DNA of 64,000 bases from Anastrepha obliqua (Eukaryota; Arthropoda; Insecta; Diptera; Tephritidae), in contig NC_072893.1 in NCBI RefSeq assembly GCF_027943255.1, positions 112,963,784 to 113,027,783 on the forward strand, given 5' to 3'. Shown here in pieces: positions 5,808 to 59,544 of the stretch. The translations under genes were made by a program, and so were the position numbers. Under the pieces are notes generated by a model that saw nothing but the letters and a program-made list of their open reading frames with translations, ran no database searches and was not told where the DNA came from. Within the stretch, counting starts at the first letter, position 1. Every line of letters begins with the position of its first letter.

Positions 5808-7130
5808 AACTCTTAAGGGTAAAGAATATTCACCAATTTACACTGAATTTGTATGCGTTAAAAATTATTTATTTAATCTGCTTTAAAAACTCAAAAAAAC
5901 TGTCAAATATGTTTGCACCAAAAAAAGATAAATTTTTTAGCTCACTGCTGTGCGAATATTGAAAGCAAAACAAAAGGCAAACAACTTAAACGCTTCGCCA
6001 ATTGATAGCAAGCGTTGGTGATAAAAATATCTAAATTATTCGCATATTGGAATTTTCTACTTTTAATGTCTATATTGCGCATTTCGACCACTGTGCATTG
6101 GCACTGCCCCTGCAGTGCTTTAACAATTTAATCCTTTTCCCCGAGCAAAATACATCTTTTCCAATTTACGCGAAGAGCTTTTCCTACTCGGGAGATACTG
6201 CCATGTGTGTATGTTGTGAACGTTGTTATGAGTGTGAATATGTTTCAATTTATATTTCACTGTTTTCGTGCATTATTTGTGAAATTAGTTTGGACAATAT
6301 TATAAGACTTTGGGACTTAAGGACGCCAAGCGAACAAAAACATTGAATAACACACTTTTGAGGGCTTCATTTACTTCATTTTCCTTGCGAAGTTGAGTCC
6401 TTAGCCAAAGTACAATAAATAAGTGGGTGTGATGTCGCATATGGCAGCGAGACTTACAAACACAAATGTACGTTGTGGGTGTGCCTGAGTGAATAGCTGA
6501 GTTTTTCCCGAAAACAGATGTGCCTTTGGCAATAAACTTTTGCATGTACATATGCATATATATTTTTATATGTGAGTATATGTATGTGTGTGCCCATATA
6601 TGTATGTATGTATATAATCTTTGTGCTTGTGTGTTTTTGCTGCCAGGCAAACTCTTTGGACAAAGTTACTGCTTCGAATTTAAACAGACACAAACGTGCT
6701 ATAAATTTTGTATAAATTTTCATATTTACATTCTTTCTCATACGCGCTCATAAGAGTATATTTGATTATGCTTCTTCTTCCTTCAAATTACAAACTTCTT
6801 TTGAATTTATTGGGAGTGAATTGCGACGTTAGGCGCTTCTTTGAAACAGGAAGAGGCCACAATACATCCTCAGATGTTTGAGGCTTAATTTACTCAAGCC
6901 TGAGTGCTCAGACTGGGGTATGTTTAAATGCGTCTGCAGCTGCTCTGTAGATTTACCTAAAATCACGTAGGTAAATATGTAACTAAACTTGAACTTTTGT
7001 CGTGTATTTGAGTTCAGTAAAGGTGCTTAACTTAAGCCTGGAGAAATTTAACAAATTTATGTAGATCTCTGAGTACTTTTTCTTCTTAGCTACGCGGCAA
7101 CATAATTATATTAAAATCTTTAGCAAAATA
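5808..7130. other. No recognised gene; contains a microsatellite
   Basis: Several open frames at 6300-6750 are low-complexity (Tyr/Ile/Cys/His-rich) translations of a TATG-type microsatellite and are not supported as genes. Confidence 0.5.
6541..6620. repeat. TATG/TATA microsatellite
   Basis: An imperfect run of TATG, TATA and GTGT units, including ATATGTATGTATGTATATAA at its right end. Confidence 0.75.
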
Positions 7131-8332
7131 CAAGGTGAAGTTCAAAATAAGCAAGATTGGGTTAAAATAGAAACGACAGGAGTTTTGTTCTGATAACTTC
7201 GAGTTTATTTATTCAAAATAGTCCCCTCTGCCTTCGATAGACAGTTTTGCGTTTCTAAACGCTTTTCGAAAGTGTGTTACAGGCGATTGACCGGAATGTC
7301 TTTAATGATGTCGGTACAAGCCTTTTGGATGGCCTCTACGGACGCAAAACGTTTAACTTTCTTTGCCAAATGCAATTTTCCGAATAGGTAGAAGTCACAG
7401 GGAGCCAATCAGGCGAGTACGGTGAGTGATTGATGGTTAAAATGCGATTTCTAGTCAAAAAATCAATCACAAGAGTGGATCGATGAGATGGTGGATTATC
7501 CTGCAATAAGCTCCAGCTTCCTCCCTCGCAGTATTCAGGGCGAATTCGACGAATGCGATGAAACAAACGCTTCAAAACGCCAATATAGAAAATTGCATTG
7601 ACGGTTTCGCCCGTTGGCACTGACTCATTGTGGACAATTTCCTTGGAATCGTAAAAACAAATGAGGATCAACTTGATTTTTCATCTGGGGCCTTCCATTC
7701 GGCACATTGACGCTTAGTTTCAGGTTCATGTTGGTAACACCACGTTTCACCACCAGTTACAATGTAGTAAAGGAAGTTTTCGTCTTTTCTCCCCTCTTTA
7801 ATGAGGTCTTTCGAATGTTTAATTCTGAGCAATTTTTGGTCCTCAGTTAACTTGTGCGGAATGAAACGTGCTCAGACCTTTCGTAAGCCTAAATGGTCAG
7901 TTAAAATGCGATAAATCGATGTTTTGGAAATATTCAACTCCGATTCCATGAATTTCAACTATGATTTCGGTTCATCTTTGATAAATTTACGAACAATTTC
8001 GATGGAGTTTTCGGTGATTACTGATTTTGCGCGGCCCGTATGTTCATTGTCATTTACGTCCTCACAACCATATCTGAAACGCGTAAACTCATGAACTCTG
8101 GCAATGATCGCCATAAGTTTTTTCATCAATTAAAATGTTTCGGTAAACGTTTTACCGATTTTGCAACAAAATTTGATATTAGCTCTTTGTTCGAAACTAA
8201 TTTTTGTACCGATGACACAAATATACTGACAGTTTAGATGCAATAACTTCGCTTCCACTCAACCGAATGTCACCAAGTTTTCACTGGAAGTCAGCTAGGG
8301 ATGTAACTTGCTACGCACTAACTCACTAAAAA
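7131..8332 (-). pseudogene. Mariner-like transposase fossil M1
   Basis: On the minus strand the N-terminal region lies near 8240 and the C-terminus near 7330. Recognisable pieces are GTKISFEQRANI, then TGGETW where mariner transposases have TGDETW, then ICFYDSKEIVHNESVPTG, SWSLLQDN (second Asp) and a frame-shifted CDFYLFGKLH-type third block. Several frameshifts and stops are present. About 28 bp present in the sister copy at 16850-18087 are missing near 7680. The left edge follows TA and begins CAAGGTGAAG. I could not find a matching inverted repeat at the other end, so the outer limits are approximate. The gene is inactive and its first catalytic Asp is replaced by Gly. Confidence 0.8.
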
Positions 8333-8720
8333 TATAAATAAGAGAAGAGAAATCGAAAGAGGAACTTCGTAAATGGAGTGAGTTTCATTTGCCACATTAC
8401 ATTTCGTGGATCCTTTACATGGTCCGAAGTCTGGTCAGCACTCTCTCTGTGAACCTTATAATACTCACTTGTTGAGGATAATAAAATGAACGACTGTTCA
8501 AAACTAACTTAAAATGATGCGATAAATTTATGTACAATGCATATTTAAATTGAAAAAAGTGGGTTTTCGTTGGCAAAAGCCATAACTTAGCTACAACACT
8601 TAGGCAACAATTCTCCTTCGAATATCCATGAGTGGACAACCCGAACGCGATCATCATCACCGGGGTGACTGCCAAGAACACGACCGGGATTCCATTTAGT
8701 GGAAAGTGGTAGTGTATAGT
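8333..8720. other. No recognised feature
   Basis: An 88-codon minus-strand frame overlaps this stretch but has no recognisable content. Confidence 0.5.
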
Positions 8721-9211: not shown

Positions 9212-10395
9212 TTAGTCGGAAATTAATCTAACTTAAGAAGTTATACTAACTTCACTTTAGTTATCGGAAATTAACTTAACGAACTTTGCTTACCTTAACC
9301 TAACTTCACTTATTGGAAATTCACTTATTTTAGCTAGCTTAACTTTTCTTGACGTAACTTAACGGAAATTAATTTAACTTAATTTAATTTTACTTATCGG
9401 AAATTAACTTAATTTAGCGAACTTATCTAATCGCAACTTAACTTTACTTATCATAAATTAACTTAGCTTAACTAAACTTAACGTATCTAAACTTAACACA
9501 TCTAAACTTAACTTTACTTATCTTATCGAAAATCTACCTAACTTAACATATCTAAATTTAACCTTTCTTATCGGAAATTAACTTAACTTGTCTTAACTTT
9601 AATTATCGGAAATCAACTTAACTTAAGAAGTTATATTAACTGAATTTTACTTATTGGAAATTAACTTAACGTAGCGAGCTTAACTTTTCTTAACTTAACT
9701 TATCGGAAATTAACTTAATTTTACTTATCGAAAATTAACTCAATTTAGCGAACTTATCTAATCGTAACTTAACTTTACTTATCAGAAATTAACTTAGCTT
9801 AACTAAACTTAACATATCTAAACTTAACTTTACTTATCGGAAATTGGCTTAAATTAACGAATTTACTTATCTTGACTTAACTTTACTTATCATAAAATAA
9901 CTTAACTCAATAAACTGAAACTCTTAATTTAACTTTACTTATCGGAAATTAATTTAACTTAACCAGCTTATGGCATCTTAACTTTACTTAACAGAAATTA
10001 ACTTAACTTAACTTTACTTATCGGATATTAACTTAACTTAACTTAACTTAACTTTACTTATCAGAAATTAACTTAGCTTAACTAAACTTAACATATCTAA
10101 ACTTAACTTTACTTATCGGAAATTGGCTTAAATTAACGAATGTAACTTATCTTGACTTAACTTTACTTATCAGAAAATAACTTAACTCAATAAACTGAAT
10201 CTCTTAAATTAACTTTACTTATCGGAAATTAATTTAACTTAACCAGCTTATCGCAACTTAGCTTTACTTAACAGAAATTAACTTAACTTTGCTTATCGGA
10301 AATTAACTTAACTTAACTTAACTTTACTTATCGGAAATTAACTTAACTTAACCATATTATCTTACCTAAACTTAACTTACCGTACCTTAATTTAT

Positions 10396-16245: not shown

Positions 16246-16849
16246 CCTTGAGCTTTATTTTGCCTTGGTTTTTGCCAAATTTTTTGAGAAAAGGTTCTTC
16301 TTTTCAAAATTTTGATAGTAATAAGAAATACTTAATTAATGCAGAGTGATAGTAAACATTTAAAAGCTTTATAGCAAAAAAATAGTACATCAATCGGATG
16401 AGCCAATTTTGATTTTTCGCAGTTTGAAAATTATTTTTGTGATTTTTTAACACATTTGCGCTTACAGACGCGCCCCTTTTGTGAGTTTATACAATTTATG
16501 TTGACAAAAACCTTTTAAGAGAAACTAGCTACAAAGTACAGAAAACCCCGTGCAAATTGAACCATTCTGTGCATACTTATTCGACTTATTTTGAGACTCT
16601 ATTTAAAAAACAAATGCAATAATCTGGTCTCGCTCTGGAAGGTTCATTCTTAAACCATAAGCCCATACCCGGCGGTCCAGTCGTCATAGTTTTGAGCGCT
16701 TTATAGCAATAGGAATTGTCTAGGACGCCTACGACGCATGGAGCGGAGCTCAAGTTTTATGAATACAGTCCACCTCAACACAAGTTAAACACACTACAAA
16801 TAGGCGGAGGAGCTCAGCCAAATACCTAAAAAGTGTACAAGCGCGCTTA
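16246..16849. other. No recognised feature
   Basis: Nothing recognisable on either strand. Confidence 0.5.
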
Positions 16850-18087
16850 CAAGGTGAAGTCCAAAATAAACCAGACTGCGCTAAAATAGAAACGACAGGA
16901 GCTTTGTTTTGATAACTTCGAGTTTATTTATTCAAAATAGTCCCCTTTAGCTTCCATAGACTGTTTTGCGTTTCTAAAAGCTTTTCGAAAGAGTGTTTCA
17001 GGTCATCGGCTGGAATGACCTTCAGGATGTCCGTGCGAGACTTTGGGATAACCTCTACGGACGCAAAACGTTTAACTTTCTTGGCCAAATGCAATTTTCC
17101 GAATAGGTAGAAGTCACAGAGAGCCATTTCAGGCGCGTATGATGAGTGATTGATGATTGATGATTGATTAAAATGCGATTTCTAGTCAAAAAATCAGTCA
17201 CAAGAGTGGAGATGGGTGGTGCATTATCATGCAATAAGCTCCAGCTTCCTCCCTCGCAGTATTCAGGGCGAATTCGACGAATGCGATGAAACAAACGCTT
17301 CAAAAAGCCAATATAGAAAATTGCATTGACGGTTTGGTCCGTTGGCACTGACTCATTGTGGACAATTTCCTTGGAATCGTAAAAACAAATGAAGATCAAC
17401 TTGATTTTTGATTTTTCTCTTCTTGGATTGTTGCTCATCTGGGGCCTTCCATTCGGCACTTTGACGCTTAGTTTCAGGTTCTTGTTGGAAACACCACGTT
17501 TCACCACCAGTTACAATGTTGTAAAGGAAGTTTTCGTCTTTTCTCCCCTCTTTAATGAGATCTTTCGGATGTTGAATTCTGAGCAATTTTTGGTCCTCAG
17601 TTAACTTGTGCGGAATGAAACGTGCTCAGACCTTTCGTAAGCCTAAATGGTCAGTTAAAATGCGATAAATCGATGTTTTGGAAATATTCAACTCCGATTC
17701 CATGAATTTCAACTATGATTTCGGTTCATCTTTGATAAATTTACGAACAATTTCGATGGAGTTTTCGGTGATTACTGTTTTTGCACGGCCCGTATGTTCA
17801 TTTTCATTTATGTCCATACAACCATATCTGAAACGGGTAAACTCATGAACTCTGGCAATGATCGCCATAAACTTTTTTCATCAATTAAAATGTTTCGGTA
17901 AACGTTTTACCGATTTTGCAACAAAATCTGATATTAGCTCTTTGTTCGAAACTAATTTTTGTACCGAGGACACAAACATACTGACACTTTAGATGCAATA
18001 ACTTCGCTTCCACTGAACCGAATGTCACCAAGCATTCATTGGAAGTCAGCTAGGGATGTAACTCCCAACGCACTAACTCACTAAAAA
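16850..18087 (-). pseudogene. Mariner-like transposase fossil M2 (sister of M1)
   Basis: This copy is closely similar along its length to 7131-8332 and in the same orientation. The minus strand carries the N-terminal region near 17960, TGGETWCFQQEPETKRQ, ICFYDSKEIVHNESVPTD, SWSLLHDNAP (second Asp) and LCDFYLFGKLHLAKKVKRF (third Asp). It retains about 28 bp lost from M1 and has its own small GATTGATGATT duplication near 17150. The first catalytic Asp is Gly here too (TGGE). Frameshifts break the frame into at least three segments. The left edge again follows TA and begins CAAGGTGAAG. Confidence 0.82.
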
Positions 18088-19080
18088 GATGGCGCCATCA
18101 CAAACACCTCCTGTAAAAATATTTTTTATTGTTTTTTTATTTTATAAAATCTAGAGCTAAAATAATGTGAACAAATTGAATAATTGAACCTGTGCAACAC
18201 TTCGCTTTTCGGAGCTTAAGTTGGCTTTCCGGCGCAGACAATTGTGATTTATGGAGATTCGTACTTTACATTTGACATATTTGGCATATTTTGTTATTTA
18301 TTTGCAGCCATTAGTGAATCTTTGTGTTTATTTGCCATAAACACTCGCACTCTACGGAGAACACTGAGATTTTTCACGCAGATGTGATAATTGAAAAACG
18401 ATTTCATTTTAGTGCGCCTTTGTGCGAATTGCTGATAATGAGCTGCGGAATTTAAAAGTGATGGATTTCGACTGCATAATTCAGATATGCCTAGGTTGCT
18501 TGTGGGTGCTTCAGTAATGCTTTATGTGGTAATAAATCATTATTGGATGAAGAGCATCTCACTGCGCGGCCGAAGTAATAAGCCTGTCACTATATAGGTA
18601 TTTAGGGAATTTACATATTTTAACAAATGCAAATAAATTTATTGAAGCAAGAAAATAATTTGAACTGAGTAAATAAATGTAGAATGAAGGTATTTATAAT
18701 CTAAGTAGCAATGAGTGGCCACCGAATAGTCTTAAGTATGTACTTAGTAGGTAAGCAGGTGCGATTAGAGGTAGTTAAGCTACTAAAATTACACGTGCGG
18801 CTTTAATGAATCCCATAAACTTCTCACACCAATTTGAGCTCTTTAGTATCAGTCCCACTTTTTGCATTGAGAACTCTTTTAGTTAGAAAGTTATTGACTT
18901 AAGAGCGATTTAAATGCTTTGAATGGGGGCTGAGTGCTTGAGAAAATACACAGCCGTTAAGTAGGTAGGTAAGTAGGTTAGATGGCAAGAATATCACGGG
19001 CACACTTCAAGTAGCACTAGAGTGCGTTTGAGACCATCATCTGCGGAAAATTTCAAAAATTTGAAGGAAGAAAAATCTTC
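18088..19080. other. No recognised feature
   Basis: AT-rich, no recognisable frame or repeat. Confidence 0.5.
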
Positions 19081-43000: not shown

Positions 43001-43486
43001 TTATAAATTTCTAAGCTATTTTTTTTAGTTTATTTATTTAACTATCCTTAGGAATTTAAGCTCATATTAACTCTAAGTTTTCTGTAAAAATGAAATAAAC
43101 GAAAACGAAAATTTTCCCACGTGACATCACAATGGGCTATGAGCTTCAGTGTGCCCATAGTGGACAACAGCTTCCACCTAACCTTGGCGTTAGGCCCTTT
43201 TAAAAGGCCCTTTTTCATTATGGAAAAGGTTTTACATGAAAATGAGTATTTAAGAAAATTTAAACCTTATACGTGAAAAATATTAAGCCAAAAAAAGGGC
43301 AAATAAATATTTTTTGTATTAATTTTTACTGCAAATAAATAGTGCAAATTGAAAAAATTGTCTTTGTGTTTTTCAAAACAATTTAGTCTTATTTTTTGAA
43401 AAACTTTTCAAACATAAAGTGTCCCGAAAAAATAAATTTGCATGCCTTTGAAAAAGTTAAAGGTCCAAAGTGGAACTGCAAACATA
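43001..43486. other. No recognised feature
   Basis: AT-rich sequence before the nested transposon locus; nothing recognised. Confidence 0.5.
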
Positions 43487-43498
43487 TTGGTTTGGCAA

Positions 43499-44218
43499 CT
43501 AAGTAATTGGGGGTTGCCCATTTTGATCAGTGACCTTTTGCCATATCTCAGGCAGCATCATAATCCCACGTTCATAAAACTTCTGGATTTGATTAGCAAA
43601 AGACTGAATCAGGTACGATTTGACATCTTCATCATTATTGGAATTTTTACCATTTGAGGAGTTTTGTAAAGATCGAAACAAAAAGCAATCAGATGGTGAA
43701 AGGTTAGGACTATATGGTGGATCTGGCAAAACATCCCACCCAAGCTCCAATAATTTTTGTCGAGTGGCCCAAGATGTGTGTGGCCTTGCATTGACATGAT
43801 GGAATACAATTCTTTTTCGATTTGTCAATTCGGGCCGCTTTTCTTCAACTGCATTGTTTAATTCGTTAGTTGTTGAATATAGACATCAGAATTGATCGTT
43901 CGTTTGGGGGGTAAGAGTTCAAAGTAAACAATTCCTTTGTAATCCCACCAAACTGATAACAAAACCTTCTTTTGATGAATATCAGCTTTTGATGTTGTTT
44001 GAGTTGGTTCACCTAGCCTGCTCCACGATTTTTTCCACTTGATATTGTTGTAAAAAACCCACTTTTTATCGCCAGTTATCAGTCGTTTTAAAAATGGATA
44101 ATTTTCATTACGTTTCATTAGCAAATCGCAGCTGTTAATGCATTGCGTTAAATACGTCTCTTTCAGTTCATGAGGAACTCATGTATCGAGTTTTTGAACA
44201 CAGCCAAGTTGTTTTACA
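43499..44218 (-). pseudogene. Mariner D transposase, C-terminal two thirds
   Basis: The minus strand resumes with VKQLGCVQKLD, then a TGA, VPHELKETYLTQCINSC, ITGDKKWVFYNNIK (first Asp), VLLSVWWDYKGIVYFELLPP, HHVNARPHTS and LSPSDCFLFRSLQNS (third Asp). The second Asp, in the usual HHDNARPH, is Val here. A frameshift lies between 43830 and 43870. The protein ends just inside the inverted repeat. The gene is inactive through both the Val substitution and frame breaks. Confidence 0.88.
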
Positions 44219-44299
44219 TGAAACGGATTTTTCAAAATTCGAATTATTTTCGGAGATTTAGTGGATTTTGTGGGGTTGGGTACAATATGATTTTGGTTC

Positions 44300-44410
44300 A
44301 AAATTCTGTATTTAAAATTCTGTATTCAATATTCTGTATTCAAAAATCTGTAATGCAAAATTCTGTAATGTTAAAATTCTGTATTGCAAAATTCTGTATT
44401 GAAAAATCGG
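44300..44410. repeat. Subterminal iterated motif of MULE B
   Basis: The motif AAAATTCTGTA occurs seven times in about 110 bp, with spacer variants. About five inverted copies (TACAGAATTT) lie inside the right end at 48405-48550. Iterated subterminal motifs in opposite orientation are a common arrangement for transposase binding, which is inference here. Confidence 0.7.
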
Positions 44411-44649
44411 AAGAGCATATGGATAAATAATATGTTTGTATGTATTTATAGCTTCAGAAACAATGTGAATGAAATTCGAGCAACCGTGCTAAAAAATATT
44501 GTAGAATAAATACAATATTTTCTGTATACTTCGTTCAAATACCTAACTGTTTTAATCAATTCCCATTCATTGTACGTTTTTTTGTTGTAAAATTTATAGA
44601 AACACAATACGACAACGACAGCACCAAACCCAGCGGCCTTTTGTTTTTG

Positions 44650-46053
44650 CTTCTCGTTTACAGCAGGTCAAATAAGTTTAGAAAGAGAGTTTCGATTAGT
44701 TCTATTGATAGTGGCTGGCCAACGTGCATGAATCAAGTTTGGGGAAATTACAAATTTATACATAGAAATGTCGTTCGCGTCTTGTTACAATACTTATTGA
44801 AAATGTGCATACGATTACGAAGTATTCAAAGGATCGCTCCCATGAACCGTTTCCAGATGAGGTCAATGTCGTAAAAGCTAATAATTTGGTGAAAAAGTGG
44901 GCGAAATCAAGCTTGCTGACTACTAGCCAAATAATCCAGAAATTTGTTGTTGAGACCGTTTCCGTCAGCCGTGACTATTTACCCACAAAAAGTGTTCAAA
45001 AGCAAAAAATTAACAGGATAAAAAGAGCAAAAGTAGGACTTCGTCAACCAAATTCGATAGAAGAAATAGATATTCTATTAAGTTTGTATGTTTTGGAAAA
45101 TGAACTTTTTATTTTTTGTCAGAAAAATATTTCCACAATGAATGTATGATTATATGTGGTACTAAATCATCATTGCAATTGCTTGATGAAAGCGACTGTT
45201 GGATCATGGATGGCACTTTCGATGTGGTGCCTACATTTATGCGACAACTCTTTTCCATACATGGTCGGGTTGAAGGGCAAATAATACCTCTCGTATTCTG
45301 CATTATGAGCAGAAAATCATTAACCAGCTATGTGACGTTTTTCATTGAGCTCATTGGATTTGCTCGAGGATATGGCATACAATTAAATCCAAAACGAATC
45401 CTTAGTGACTTTGAGATAGGTGTTATATCGGCTGCCAAAAAATATTTTCCCGATACGAGATTGCAAGGATGTTTCTTTCATTTTAGTCCAATAATTTTGG
45501 TATATTGTGTAATATATTGATATACTGAACAATTTCATCCCAACTACCATAGGGTACTGAATATTTAATTTTTTTTGTTTGCAGATTGGTTCAGAAATAT
45601 GGAAATGATTCATATTTTTCCTTACATATTAGAATGTTAAAAGCTCTGGCTTTTTTGCCTCACGACGAAGTCTCTGAGTACTATAATCAATTTTATAGTA
45701 CTCTTGAAGACGAAGATACAAAACAGTTTTGCTCGTGGTTTGAAAGAAATTACATAGCTCGAGACAACTCCCAGCCAAAATACCCACCAAAATTTTGGTC
45801 AGTGCACGATGAGTCCAATATCGCATTCACCAGAACGCAAAACAGTATTGAGGCTTGGCATCGTCGGCTAAAAGTTATTGTTGGAAAACGAAACTTAGGG
45901 TTGTACAAACTAATTAATGATCTAAAAGGCGAGCTGGTTTGTGCGAAAGCACAACTAGCTAAAATTCAAAATGGTCACAAAATTAGTCAAACGAAGAAGG
46001 CTGTAAAAGCAAACAACAGAATTAAAAGAATAACAAAAAAAAGGCTTATATAA
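44650..46053 (+). pseudogene. MULE transposase with FLYWCH-like finger remnant
   Basis: A degraded N-terminus ends HTITKYSKDRSHEPFPDEVN, resembling the H-x-H end of a FLYWCH zinc finger, followed by VVKANNLVKKWAKSS. The MULE catalytic domain shows CWIMDGTFDVVP (first Asp), RILSDFEIGVI (second Asp), CFFHFS (Cys/His motif) and NSIEAWHRRLKVIVG (catalytic Glu). Frame breaks lie near 45145 and between 45518 and 45590. The second gap ends in TTTTTTTTGTTTGCAG, which could be an intron acceptor, but no matching donor restores the frame. The C-terminal 155 codons (45586-46053) are open to the stop. All three catalytic acids survive. Confidence 0.85.
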
Positions 46054-46189
46054 TATTAAGGCATGTTTCTTTTCTAAAGCGAATTGCTAAAAATTTAATA
46101 ATATAATAATTGTTTCGCCATTATAATCTAATAACTTTTGTTTTGAATGAATTTTTGAATTTTTCTTTAATTGACGTATGTATGTATAT

Positions 46190-48270
46190 TAGACCGGAGT
46201 GAAATACGTAAATTTTTTCAAATCATATCGTAATAGCAGGGAAAAGTTGCTACATATCAATACAAATTCAGGAAAAAAAAGAAATTTCAAATCGGTTAAT
46301 ATCTTCCGTTCGCGCATTGCATTTAAAATTTACAAATTTTATAATAAATTGAACAAATATTCGAAAAATTGTAAGAGGTGGAAATGATGTTAGATAAAGT
46401 TCATTTTTTGTAGACTATTACAACATCAGGTATAGTTTGAAAAGAAAAACGTCTACCGCTCTATCAAAGCCCCTACAGCCCCTGAAAAGAAGTGGAAAAT
46501 GTCATTTTTTGTATAAATTTACGTAATTGCGGGTGGTTAGTTTCTCTATTTTAATTTTTGTATAAGTCTTCTTGAGTATATAAGTATAATAAATTATTCC
46601 CCTCTTAGCGCGCCCACTGACCACACTATCTTAAAGAAGTTTTGTACAGCTCTTGGCCCGCCCTTTTTGGACGACTCAGAACTCACCGCGTGAAGGTGAC
46701 TGTACGACGAGTTCCACCCACTCCCTTCCCAACCAACCAACCAAAGATGAAAAATTATTTATTCGGGAGTGGCAAAGTCTGCTTTAGTGTCAAATTGAGG
46801 CATAACTGTACGAGAAGTGAGTGCTGCTCTTATAAACCCATCACGTCTCTCGTTCCCATACACTTTTGAGGACGCTTGAGTTACTAGTTTTACGCAACGC
46901 TCCACAGCTTGCGTATGGCATGGAATATTTGTTAAATCTATGGTTAATTTAGGTTTTTCTTTATCAGAAATTAATTGCAAGATATCTTCAGAAGAAAGGC
47001 TGTCTAAAATTGGAGGGCAGGTAAGTTTCATTTCAGACCAATTAATTAACTCAAAATATTCATTTGCTTCAAAGTTCAGTTTAGGAACCAAAAAGTTTCT
47101 AATATTTTTGTCTTTTGAAGGGATTTCTTTTATTTTCAGAACTCGCCTCAATCCAAGATCGCGGACATGCTCTCTGTCATCTACCACCATCGAGAGAAGA
47201 ATGTTTTCTGGATGGGCAAAAAAGGAATTTGTTTGAATAACCTAACCTGTAACCTAATAACCTAATAACTTGAAGATTGTTCAATAAAATCATTGTACTT
47301 CTTTTGTTTCTCAGGTGTGTCTTTGTCCCTTGAATAAGATTTACGAAGAGTGTAGTATCGATCATGTAGATGTTTAATCTTTTGTACAACTCTTGTGTGG
47401 GAAACTATTGGAATCGAAGCCTTGGAATAAAGGGACTCAGTCTGATGAGCTACAGTATCTGCTACAACTGTGAAGCTTAACTTCTGACCAGAACTGGCAG
47501 CAGAAGATTCTACTGACATTTTGTACCTCACTTCTTGCCAACATTGTATAATGTCGGTATTAGTGGGAAGGACCGATGACAGCAGTGGTTTAGGTGCACC
47601 AAAAAATGGGCAGTGTATGTCCTTACGAGTAAGAGACATGAATAAAATGTTTCAAGAGATTTAATGTTAAGTAATTGTGTAAACTATGTAATTCAAAAGA
47701 ACATCGAATAGAATTTTTTTTGACCAAACAGCGCTGTTCGACAAGAGTGAAAGCAGAACTGGTAATGACCAGAGATTACTAGCTCTTCCGTGCACTTCGT
47801 TTATCGGTATGCCAGAATCAAAAGCAAAATGAAAAGAAAGACGATGGAATACAAGTAACCAAGTGGAAGACGATCTAAAGCACAGACGTGTTGTAGTAGC
47901 CGTAAGCCGCTTTCACGCAAGCCTCATTTGGCATAGGCTTCCTTAGTAGATTTGGTGTGAAATTGGTAAAAGTTAATCGCTCAGAACCAGAGAAATGGAT
48001 AGATTAGTAAATTAAAAATCTACTACTCAATGCTGAAAGTGCTATGTATAAAAAGGGAGCTCGATCTTTAATCATTTACAACTTCTACAAGTTTTCGTAA
48101 ATCAGCTAGATTTGGGATAAAATTTGTAAATTTTAAATGCAATGCGCGAACGGAAGATATTAACCGATTTGAAATTTCTTTTTTTTCCTAAATTTTTTAT
48201 TGATATGTAGCAACTTTTCCCTGCTATTACGATATGATTTGAAAAAATTTACGTATTTCACTCCGGTCTA
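46190..48270 (-). mobile_element. 2.1-kb element (C) with ~148-bp inverted repeats, 8-bp target duplication
   Basis: The left end TAGACCGGAGTGAAATACGT and the following ~148 bp are repeated in reverse complement at about 48122-48270 with only a few differences. ATGTATAT flanks both sides (46182-46189 and 48271-48278), although that sequence is low-complexity. It lies inside MULE B, downstream of its transposase. Its gene runs on the minus strand and belongs to a family that I cannot link to a known transposase. Long, nearly identical inverted repeats suggest a young insertion. Confidence 0.82.
46759..47639 (-). pseudogene. Uncharacterised transposon-borne protein (FAHPEN / PCHTQAVER family), middle deleted
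   Basis: The N-terminal part (ATG at 47637-47639) is open for 125 codons. It has DIIQCWQEVRYKM, SIPIVSHTRVVQKIKHLHDR and a basic KSYSRDKDTPEKQKKYNDF, and stops at 47262. After about 25 bp the C-terminal part begins with FAHPENILLSMVVDDREHVR and RRVLKIKE, then FELINWSEM, IPCHTQAVERCVKLVTQAS and DGFIRAALTSRTVMPQF, ending near 46759. I recall full-length relatives of about 500 residues from many arthropods, with a Cys-rich central region missing here. Their function is unknown to me. The gene sits inside inverted repeats and may be the mobility gene of element C or a passenger. Confidence 0.7.
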
Positions 48271-49231
48271 ATGTATATATACCATTGTTTCTATAAAATC
48301 AGAATTCAGAAAATAAAATAAATTTGCTATTCAGGTAAGCGTGCTTATCAGGTTATCTGCTTATTTGGTTATATTTTTACAGTATTTTGATCGAAAATAA
48401 TTTTGATTCCAGAATTTTAATATACAGAATTTCAGTTCTCCATCATTTTGATCATACAGAATTTTAAATACAGAATATTGAACCAAAAGAATTTAGGCTG
48501 GACAGATTTTTTTTTTTTGATTTTTACAGAATTTTGAAAAGCAGAATTTAGTACCTTTCCCGATTTTGTGACGTGGCGTCTAAGCCGGCTGAGTGGAGCG
48601 AATCGCACAATGAACGGCAGATGTTACCGGACGACTTGAGGACTCGTTCTTTCCAGAAAATCTTTTGCATCCCACACAACCTTTATTTATTCTATACATA
48701 TCTTCTGCTCAAATATGAACGAGACGGTATCAATAAAACGGTCCGCGGATGACATATGGCAAAAATAAATTTTTTGTTTTTTGGTGTGTTCTTCAAGATG
48801 AACGTCATGATATCTCAAGTTCTACTTGAACGATCGCTTTGAAGTTTGATAAGAATTTTTTATTATACATGTACAGGCGCGATGCCTCGGATGTTGAAAA
48901 ATTTAAGTTTGAAGTATTTTTAAAAAATTTGAAAAGGTAAAAAAAGAGGGTGAAAAGCTTTTTTTCAAGTTTACGCCATTTTGTGAATTTTTTTCTTTGA
49001 TTTGACGTACTCCGATAGCGATATCCTAACTAATGAAGAATTTTTTTTATGTAGCCCCCGCTTCTGTAATTCCACTTTTTTTTATTTTTTGTGTTTTATT
49101 AATATAATTTTTCTTTATACTTTTCCAATATTAATAAAAACTATAAAAAAAGTATAATAAAAATGTTTTTAATTTTTTGTTTATCTTAGTTTTAAAAATA
49201 CTTAAAATTAAGGCGCCTAGACCAGAATGAT

Positions 49232-49509
49232 TTTCAATGCATTTATGTGTGTGATACATGAAGCTTCTCTGCAATCTCACGTGTTGTATTGTGACGATTC
49301 GAATCGATTTTTGCTTTGATTAGGTCGTCATCAACTTTAACTGGACGACCAGAGCGTTTTTCATCTTTGAGTGAAAAATCACTAGAACGAAATTTGGCAA
49401 ACCAATTTTGACACTGCCGTACTTTTAAGGCTTCGTCACCACAAACAGCACATAACTTTTTGTAAGCTTGCGTTGCGGTTTTCCGACAATGTTCCTTTTG
49501 ATTTTCCAT
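49232..49509 (-). pseudogene. Mariner D transposase, N-terminal part
   Basis: The minus strand starts at ATG 49507-49509 with MENQKEHCRK and continues AYKKLCAVCGDEALKVRQCQ, WFAKFRSSDFSLKDEKRSGR and TTREIAEKLHVSHT. These are the two helix-turn-helix motifs and the GRP linker. A few bases before the first block are missing (about 20 residues compared with typical mellifera mariners). After a small frame slip it reads IEN at the edge of the inserted element A1. The rest of the protein is at 43499-44218. Confidence 0.88.
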
Positions 49510-49694
49510 TTTTCAACGAACGCCAAACGAAAACTACGCAACCGATCAAACAACTTTTCTTACTGATTGACAGCTGAATTGCCAATATCAAATAACAAAA
49601 TGTGTTTTACATTTCTACTACGTTTGCAAGCCTAAAAATTCAACTGAAGCCATCTATCAGTGAAATCCGCAATTACTTAGTTGCCAACCCAATA

Positions 49695-50819
49695 TAGTAA
49701 TGTAATAATAAAATGTATTTCTTCCGAACCTTCCTTCTATACTAGCATGTGGATAACTAAAATTTACGTAAGATGTCAAACGTGTTTTCTTACAAGTACT
49801 TTTTTTTCTAATTTAGACTTCTTAAAGCGCACCAATGCCCTTAAATAATTTAATTTACCATCAAAAAGTCAAAGTATTGGCCTCCGCTTATGTGGTGTAT
49901 TTTTAGGCGGGCAGGTGGTTTTATTTTTAAATATCAAACAAAGTTGCGGAAATACCCAATCGATCTATTTTAAGTATATTGCAAATATTTAAAAATGCAT
50001 AAAAGTTTCATTAGTCAGCATTTTGCGTTTTCCGCTTTTCCATACAAATCTATATGCATCGTTCGCCAGTTTGGCGACAACAAATGGAAAATCACAAAAA
50101 TATACTCAAATGAAAATATTTATGCTTAGTATATGCGGTATTTTCGTACAACCAAACATGTGCGTATGTATGTTTGTGCATATGAATATTTTCGATTTTT
50201 CGTCATTTGTTGTTATTACACATTTTTCCACTTAAGCACAGAAAATACTAATTGGTGCTTGTACTGCTGGCTTTATGTTCGTTATGGTGCTGAAGAGGAA
50301 TTTTTGTATTGCACACAAATATATTTACATATAAGTATGTACGAGTGTGCAAGAGTTGTCATCTGCATCAGGGTCTCAACGATTTCCACGCTTGTTTATT
50401 GAGATGACCAGGAAAGCCAATAATTCAGTTATCGTTGTTGGTGGTTGAGAAGTGCAGTTTCATGCCATTATTTTTCTTCTTCTTCATTCTTTGATAAGCT
50501 GCCAGTTATTATACCTACACTTAGTACTGTTGAATCCACTTTTCGGATATTCAGTTGAAATTTCTAGGCCAATATTTAGGCTGCGGCAAATTAACAAAGA
50601 GCTACACTCTACTTTAAACAAAATCAGGTTTTAATAAAGAAGTTGCGACCTTTAAATCTTAGAGTCTGGCTTTGGCTACTTCTTGAATATTTTCTTCAGA
50701 GATGGCACCTAGTATTGGTTTGCTCTCAGTGGTTGAATTATTTCGATATTCACAGGTGGCTCAAACATACAGATTGACGCAGCTCTTGCTGGTTAGGTTT
50801 TTGTGCCAGTCCCAATTCA
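49695..50819. other. No recognised gene
   Basis: AT-rich with short frames lacking recognisable content. Confidence 0.5.
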
Positions 50820-58309: not shown

Positions 58310-58400
58310 CCAGCGCTTAACTAGAACCTAGAACCTCGATATATGTGTGATTTGCAAATATAGCGACGATTAATGCAAGTCTCTTCATTTCTTGAATTAA

Positions 58401-59428
58401 GGGGATATTCTGGTCTAGGCGCCTTAATTTTAGGTATTTTTAAAACTAAGATAAAAAAAAATGAAAAACATTTTTACCATAAATTTTTTTTATTATTTTA
58501 TTAATATTGGAAAAGTATAAAAAAAAAACATAAAAAAAATAAAAAAATCTTGGAATGGAAATGGAACAAAAAATGAAAAACATTATTATTATCCTTTTTT
58601 TATGGTTTTTATTAATATTGGAAAAGTGTAAAGGAAATAAATTAATAAAAAACAAAAAATAAAAAAAAACGTGGAATTACAGGAGTGGGGGCCACATAAA
58701 AAACGGTGCTCCTTGGTTGACATGATTCCAACCCTTTTAGTGATCTAAAACAAACAAATTAAAAAAATTCTTTATTAGTTAGGATGTCGCTATCGGAGTA
58801 CGTCAAATCAAAGAAAAAAATTCACAAAATGGCGTCAACTTGAAAAAAAACTGTTTACCCTCTTTCTTTTACCTTTTCAAATTTTATAAAAATACTTCAA
58901 ACTTAAATTTTTCAAAATCCGAGGCATCGCGCCTGCAGATGTATAATAAAAAATTCTTATCAAACTTTAATGCGATCGTTCAAGTAAAACTTGAGATATC
59001 ATGACGACCATCTCAAAAAAAGGAGTTTTGGGAAAATCGCGTTTGAAGTTTGAGCAACGATTCCAATATAATAACTTGGATCATAATATTTACTACTCAC
59101 TGTGGATTAATCGGCGATATATTACATTTCCAGGTATATATTATAGAAGTACAAAATATATATATATGTATAGAATAAATAGCGGTTGTGTGGGATACAA
59201 AAGATTTTCTGGAAAGAACGAGTCCTCAAGTCGTCCGGTAACATCTGCCATTCATTGTGCGATTCGCTCCACTCAGCCGGCTTAGACGCCACGTCACAAA
59301 ATCGGCTGTATCTCCGAAAATAATTCGAATTTTGAAAAATCCGTTGAAGGGCATATTTTTGAAGGTTAGACCTTTGAAAATATGCAAAAAAAATCGATTT
59401 TTTCAAATTTCTAGACCAGAATACGCCC
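58401..59428 (+). mobile_element. 1.03-kb TTAA-flanked element A2 (family 3), complete copy
   Basis: The left end GGGGATATTCTGGTCTAG and the right end in reverse complement GGGCGTATTCTGGTCTAG match at all but two positions. TTAA flanks both (58397-58400 and 59429-59432). It interrupts the Tc1-like element F. An internal stretch is duplicated (TATTAATATTGGAAAAGT at 58500 and 58610). No gene is present. A fragmentary second copy (A1) lies at 44219-49226. Confidence 0.87.
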
Positions 59429-59544
59429 TTAAGTTGTAGTCCTCCATGTCTTATCTGGAAAAAATCAAAACAAAAAATAATGGTGTCGGGAGTTATAGCC
59501 ACATATGACATATGCATGCTCTCAACTACCGTATGCACCCTGTA

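Follow-up and report, generated by a model that had tools for sequence, protein, structure and literature searches.

A four-level nest of DNA transposons in the genome of Anastrepha obliqua

Introduction

In plants, younger long terminal repeat (LTR) elements are found inside older ones, so that position gives the order of arrival (PMC6911290). Here, we describe a comparable nest in a fly, Anastrepha obliqua. The nest lies in a stretch of 64,000 nucleotides, hereafter called the window (C2:112963784-113027783; contig NC_072893.1 of assembly GCF_027943255.1), and consists, from outside in, of a mariner (D), a TTAA-type element (A1), a MULE (B), and a hAT-like element (C). It shares with the plant nests the younger-inside-older arrangement. 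It differs from them in its make-up, each of the four layers being a DNA transposon of another kind, and in that the same genome holds copies free of the A1, B, and C inserts.

The individual layers have described relatives. MULEs typically, although not in all cases, carry inverted repeats longer than 100 bp, according to one study (PMC5225508). Inverted ends of 10–25 bp are typical of hAT elements but do not define them (PMC3942097), and the hAT element Hermes makes 8-bp target duplications of the pattern nTnnnnAn (PMC10368747 and PMC3942097). Literature searches, which served as background only, listed no study of this locus or of C, although such a study may exist.

A first-pass annotation of the window, made from the letters alone, had proposed the four-level nest and its order of insertion, and had suggested aligning each layer with other copies in the same genome. 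All copies used here for comparison were taken from the assembly that contains the window, and the genome searched comprised 836 Mb in 204 contigs.

Architecture of the nest

The nest very probably arose by four successive DNA transposon insertions in the order D, A, B, and C. The nesting, the copies of the outer elements that lack the inserts, the target duplications of B and C, and a divergence that drops from outside in are direct observations. The features are summarized in Table 1.

Table 1 Coordinates of the features of the nest and of A2 (positions in the window).
Feature	Position	Strand	Remarks
D mariner, left piece	43487..44221	(-)	C-terminal half of the coding region, with one inverted end; TA outside at 43485-43486
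D mariner, right piece	49229..49692	(-)	N-terminal coding half and other inverted end; outer TA 49693-49694
A1, left piece	44222..44272		Starts inside family sequence, left end missing; from alignment with A2
A1, right piece	48562..49228		Last bases and TTAA missing
B MULE, left piece	44273..46189	(+)	Coding pieces 44805-46053; from MULE domain and other copies
B MULE, right piece	48271..48561	(+)	First 8 bp are C's repeated target
Target duplication of B (9 bp, GATTTTGTG), left copy	44264..44272		
Target duplication of B (9 bp, GATTTTGTG), right copy	48562..48570		
C, internally deleted hAT-like element, 2081 bp	46190..48270	(-)	Exact ends and 8-bp duplications in 5/5 copies of the deleted form
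Target duplication of C (8 bp, ATGTATAT), left copy	46182..46189		
Target duplication of C (8 bp, ATGTATAT), right copy	48271..48278		
C, left inverted repeat	46190..46412		
C, right inverted repeat	48047..48270		
C, N-terminal transposase piece	47262..47639	(-)	78% over residues 1-124 of P0121
C, C-terminal transposase piece	46759..47190	(-)	78% over residues 627-765 of P0121
A2, uninterrupted sister of A1, outside the nest	58401..59428		TTAA at 58397-58400 and 59429-59432

The outermost layer, D, has the ends of a mariner: inverted repeats of 32 nt at 91% (43484-43515 and 49664-49695) with TA at the outer limits. The protein piece from its C-terminal half matches the SETMAR (E 1e-21) and Mos1 (2.6e-19) chains, as a mariner-type transposase does, and Pfam gave no family for this piece at E up to 1. 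D is thus like Mos1 and SETMAR in transposase similarity, inverted ends, and outer TA, and differs from them in being interrupted and in carrying stops. Its left piece matches 39 other genomic places at 89–91% among the best 40 of 1785 candidates scored, and seven mariner loci (L002-L008) were excised for comparison. Both coding halves of D are colinear with uninterrupted copies, the right piece from 49228 on with L002-L004 and L006. About 60 bp next to the left end of D are lost relative to L004 and L008. The right flank of D (49693-50400, 708 bp) matches nothing in the genome except itself and is therefore single-copy, so no repeat was found around D on this side. No inverted or direct repeats of note were found in the flanks beyond D.

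A1 is absent from 7/7 mariner loci read. The insertion point is traversed with both sides intact in L002, L003, L006, and L008, and small deletions lie beside it in L004, L005, and L007.

A1 is in turn split by B (44273-48561, including C). Pfam detected the MULE domain (PF10551) in 45116-45520 at E 2.7e-14, above the curated cut-off. The 9-bp target GATTTTGTG occurs only three times in the window on both strands, the third time at the homologous place in A2, and is single and unsplit in 6/6 A copies read (L064 ends one base after it). Three further B copies, excised from a search (best 40 of 357 candidates), lie in other flanks and are bordered by duplications of their own, ATAATAATC, TTTCGAAAT, and AGTAATTAT; a 9-bp duplication, within the 8–10 bp of MULEs, was therefore present in all four B copies including that of the window. 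At its termini, B has about 12 imperfect bases followed by AATTCTGTA-type repeats, with a 35-nt inverted pair at 97%. Compared with MULEs such as Muta1 of Aedes aegypti (PMC5225508), B is alike in the domain and the 9-bp duplications, and may differ in its ends, which are short and imperfect and followed by repeated inverted motifs, where inverted repeats over 100 bp are typical. At 44758-44764, copies L059 and L060 have approximately 175 extra bases, which were either lost by the B of the window or are present only in some copies.

C lies within B, and in the three B copies read elsewhere it is absent and its target is unsplit. The inverted repeats of C are 87.6% alike across an alignment of 233 columns, of which about the first 160 are near-perfect, and measure approximately 222 bp in all. 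The 8-bp duplication was exact in all deleted copies and in 17 of the 18 longer copies for which both ends were found (20 fetched), that is, in 22/23 overall, and C occurs at other sites with different target duplications. Shorter duplications of 4 or 6 bp, suggested by a TTA/TAA that extends the inverted repeat, were considered and rejected, as the other copies fix the length at 8 bp. The target sites follow the hAT pattern nTnnnnAn, with T at position 2 in 22/23 and A at position 7 in 23/23.

We estimated how often such duplications would arise by chance. An exact 9-bp match at two fixed points was found in 2e-5 of random window-position pairs, and in 7e-4 when 3 bp of play was allowed at both points; the corresponding values for an exact 8-bp match were 5e-5 and 1.7e-3.

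The first-pass annotation had described mariner halves with matching ends and outer TA, and a MULE with a perfect 9-bp duplication between the halves of A1, and both descriptions agree with these results. For C, its inverted repeats and 8-bp duplication were borne out, and the repeat length it gave, about 148 bp, was too short.

The TTAA-type layer

The same annotation had regarded each boundary of the nest as visible in the sequence. This does not hold at the A1/D joint, where both TTAA ends of A1 are missing. A1 starts at base 88 of A2 counted from the outer TTAA, so that the first ~87 bp are gone, and stops at about 49228, short of the family end; its joint with the right piece of D is uncertain by about 4 bp. 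In a search with A2 as the query, whose ranking favors long matches, 24 of the 39 other copies began at A2 base 1, 13 at bases 3-23, and the remaining two at bases 50 and 79 (best 40 of 862). When the right piece of A1 was used as the query, pieces that reach the right end stopped at base 667 or 668, and only A1 reached 670 (best 40 of 766). TTAA was present at 6/6 left and 4/6 right ends of the family copies read there, A2 included, and copies with TTAA at both ends are thus found in the family. Because these copies start further left and reach TTAA-flanked ends, A1 lacks both of its own, and a clean TTAA insertion as A1 now stands was rejected. A search for further A copies among the loci already excised gave nothing usable.

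The A family resembles non-coding TTAA-targeting elements (piggyBac-type and others) in its TTAA ends and short inverted ends. No transposase was seen in the family (no search aimed at a coding relative was made), so that piggyBac is one candidate superfamily among others, and A1 differs in the loss of both ends. A1 (44222-49228) and A2 are separated by 10 kb and oppositely oriented, which would fit an origin of one close to the other.

The family of C

C is an internally deleted copy of an element of ~3.5 kb; the first half of C is present in 35 longer copies at 99–100%. A stop-free frame of 773 codons was found in three of the 18 complete longer copies read (L044, L047, and L052). The closest named relative of the C protein is from Ceratitis capitata (73%). 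The predicted fold of the C relative P0121 was closest to Hermes, as expected of a hAT transposase, with low Foldseek TM-scores (0.31 by query and 0.43 by target). Profile searches were negative: Pfam gave no match above the cut-off in six full-length C relatives or in the two window pieces of C, NCBIfam gave nothing for P0121, and a C-family profile found nothing among PDB sequences at E up to 1. When one window piece was the sole query, the PDB matches were weak and unrelated, the best at E 0.13.

C is therefore like hAT elements and Hermes in its nTnnnnAn 8-bp duplications and in the predicted fold of P0121, and unlike them in the lack of a Pfam match in the six relatives and in inverted repeats of about 160–220 bp, judged against the ends given in the literature (PMC10368747, PMC3942097). 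Because Pfam did not recognize it and its inverted ends are not short, we describe C as hAT-like without assigning it to one of the named hAT groups, which are Ac, Buster, and a third one (PMC3942097).

Full-length copies of the C family differ from each other by 0.2–1.0%, which points to a very recent spread. It is conceivable, though we would put it at somewhat less than an even chance, that C represents a hAT-like lineage of its own, marked by long inverted repeats and unrecognized by the sequence models used, which has freshly multiplied in this genome and is spawning a helper-dependent deleted form; the nest would then be among its latest insertions and perhaps still polymorphic.

Several minor observations concern this family. 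The N-terminal part of C-type transposases has invariant Cys pairs (C132, C134, C159, and C161; residues 127-161 of P0121), which may form a metal-binding motif. The filler at the internal deletion of C (47244-47267) contains AACCT- and AATAACCT-like repeats, as if copying had slipped during repair. Four longer copies lie in the same orientation at G000:C6:17303046-17330070 at intervals of 8661, 8655, and 8655 bp and bear an identical target duplication on the side read; the even intervals and the shared duplication suggest that a C-containing block of ~8.66 kb is tandemly repeated there.

Order of insertion and divergence

The course of events was very probably the following. Mariner D inserted at a TA. 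A1 then, as we suppose, entered D's transposase gene at a TTAA and lost its own ends later. B inserted in A1, duplicating 9 bp, and finally the deleted C inserted in B behind B's coding pieces, duplicating 8 bp. As C lost the middle of its transposase gene, it was presumably mobilized by the transposase of its longer relatives.

Divergence was determined for each layer. D differed from the majority of seven other copies at 37/700 positions (5.3%; 95% interval 3.8–7.2), and B from the majority of three at 40/2166 (1.85%; 1.3–2.5). C had 4/2081 private changes relative to 19 other copies (0.19%; 0.05–0.5), and A1 had 12/395 (3.0%; 1.6–5.2), counted with the 14 differences that A1 and A2 share against other A copies in 395 compared bases set aside. 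D's mariner family is old, eight compared copies differing by 7.7–9.4% from each other. The clock clearly favors D before B before C, and weakly favors A1 between D and B.

The order D, A, B, C given by the first-pass annotation is upheld by the insert-free copies obtained when each layer was aligned with its relatives, together with the outside-in drop in divergence. The comparison of divergence it had called for agreed in part: D, B, and C fall in the expected sequence, and A1 takes its place only after the subfamily shared with A2 is removed.

Certain points weigh against this reconstruction. Measured against the plain family majority, A1 differs at 25/393 positions (6.4%), above D, because of the differences shared with A2; A1's place between D and B therefore rests first on the nesting. 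The figures for D, A1, B, and C, moreover, are not all from the same measure. As A1 has no TTAA ends, the way in which it entered is something we infer, and the joint with D shows a 4-bp repeat, ATGA, that could indicate another mode.

Alternative explanations

Since TTAA is present at the insertion point in 7/7 mariner loci, A1 probably entered as an ordinary TTAA insertion and was then shortened by ~87 bp on its left side and by about 12 bp on its right, where the loss is bordered by AT on either side. The alternative that survives best, which we regard as unlikely but deserving of some weight, is that A1 did not transpose at all and that repair of a break in the mariner copied or captured part of an A element, the nest being otherwise as described. 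Capture would account for both missing ends and for ATGA, if this is a true repeat; the four bases can be found on either side of A1. In its favor, A2, the closest relative of A1 by aligned blocks, is only 10 kb away. However, a match of 4 bp was found in 18% of random pairs when 3 bp of play was allowed, so that ATGA carries little weight. The two pieces of D contain only six TTAA in 1200 bp, and the TTAA at the point of insertion therefore speaks against capture. In addition, a stretch of about 95 bp in A1 aligns poorly with A2, and A1 can thus not be a simple copy of A2 as it is today. An ordinary TTAA insertion followed by loss of the ends is thus the reading that we prefer.

It is very improbable that the layers form one composite element moving as a block, or that C is a part of B. 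The layers are contiguous in the window, but C is found elsewhere with other 8-bp duplications, C is missing from three B copies and B from six A copies, and no other scored match (best 40 of 766) carries A1 past its joint with D at 49229-49231. A composite of A, B, and C was therefore rejected, and with it the case that the first-pass annotation had named as a refutation, in which A, B, and C always occur together.

An assembly error that joined unrelated repeats is just as improbable: all four layers are repetitive, but misjoins would not be expected to leave the mariner halves colinear or to create perfect duplications of 8 and 9 bp at two joint pairs, and the contig spans 134.5 Mb.

Implications of the nest

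Nested transposons are common, and the present nest is therefore a clean example of ordinary transposon activity and not a new kind of biology. Its position alone gives the relative order in which four transposon families were active, and the insert-free copies confirm this order. The young and poorly described family of the innermost element, C, is the more notable part and suits follow-up by specialists.

Other repeats in the window

Two further repeats were found outside the nest. A long degenerate array with a 5-base unit, TTAAC, and a higher-order period of 280 occupies 9271-10394. A 1.2-kb repeat is present in two copies (7129-8335 and 16848-18090) with 91% identity; it contains open frames, which look like those of another mariner-type transposase.

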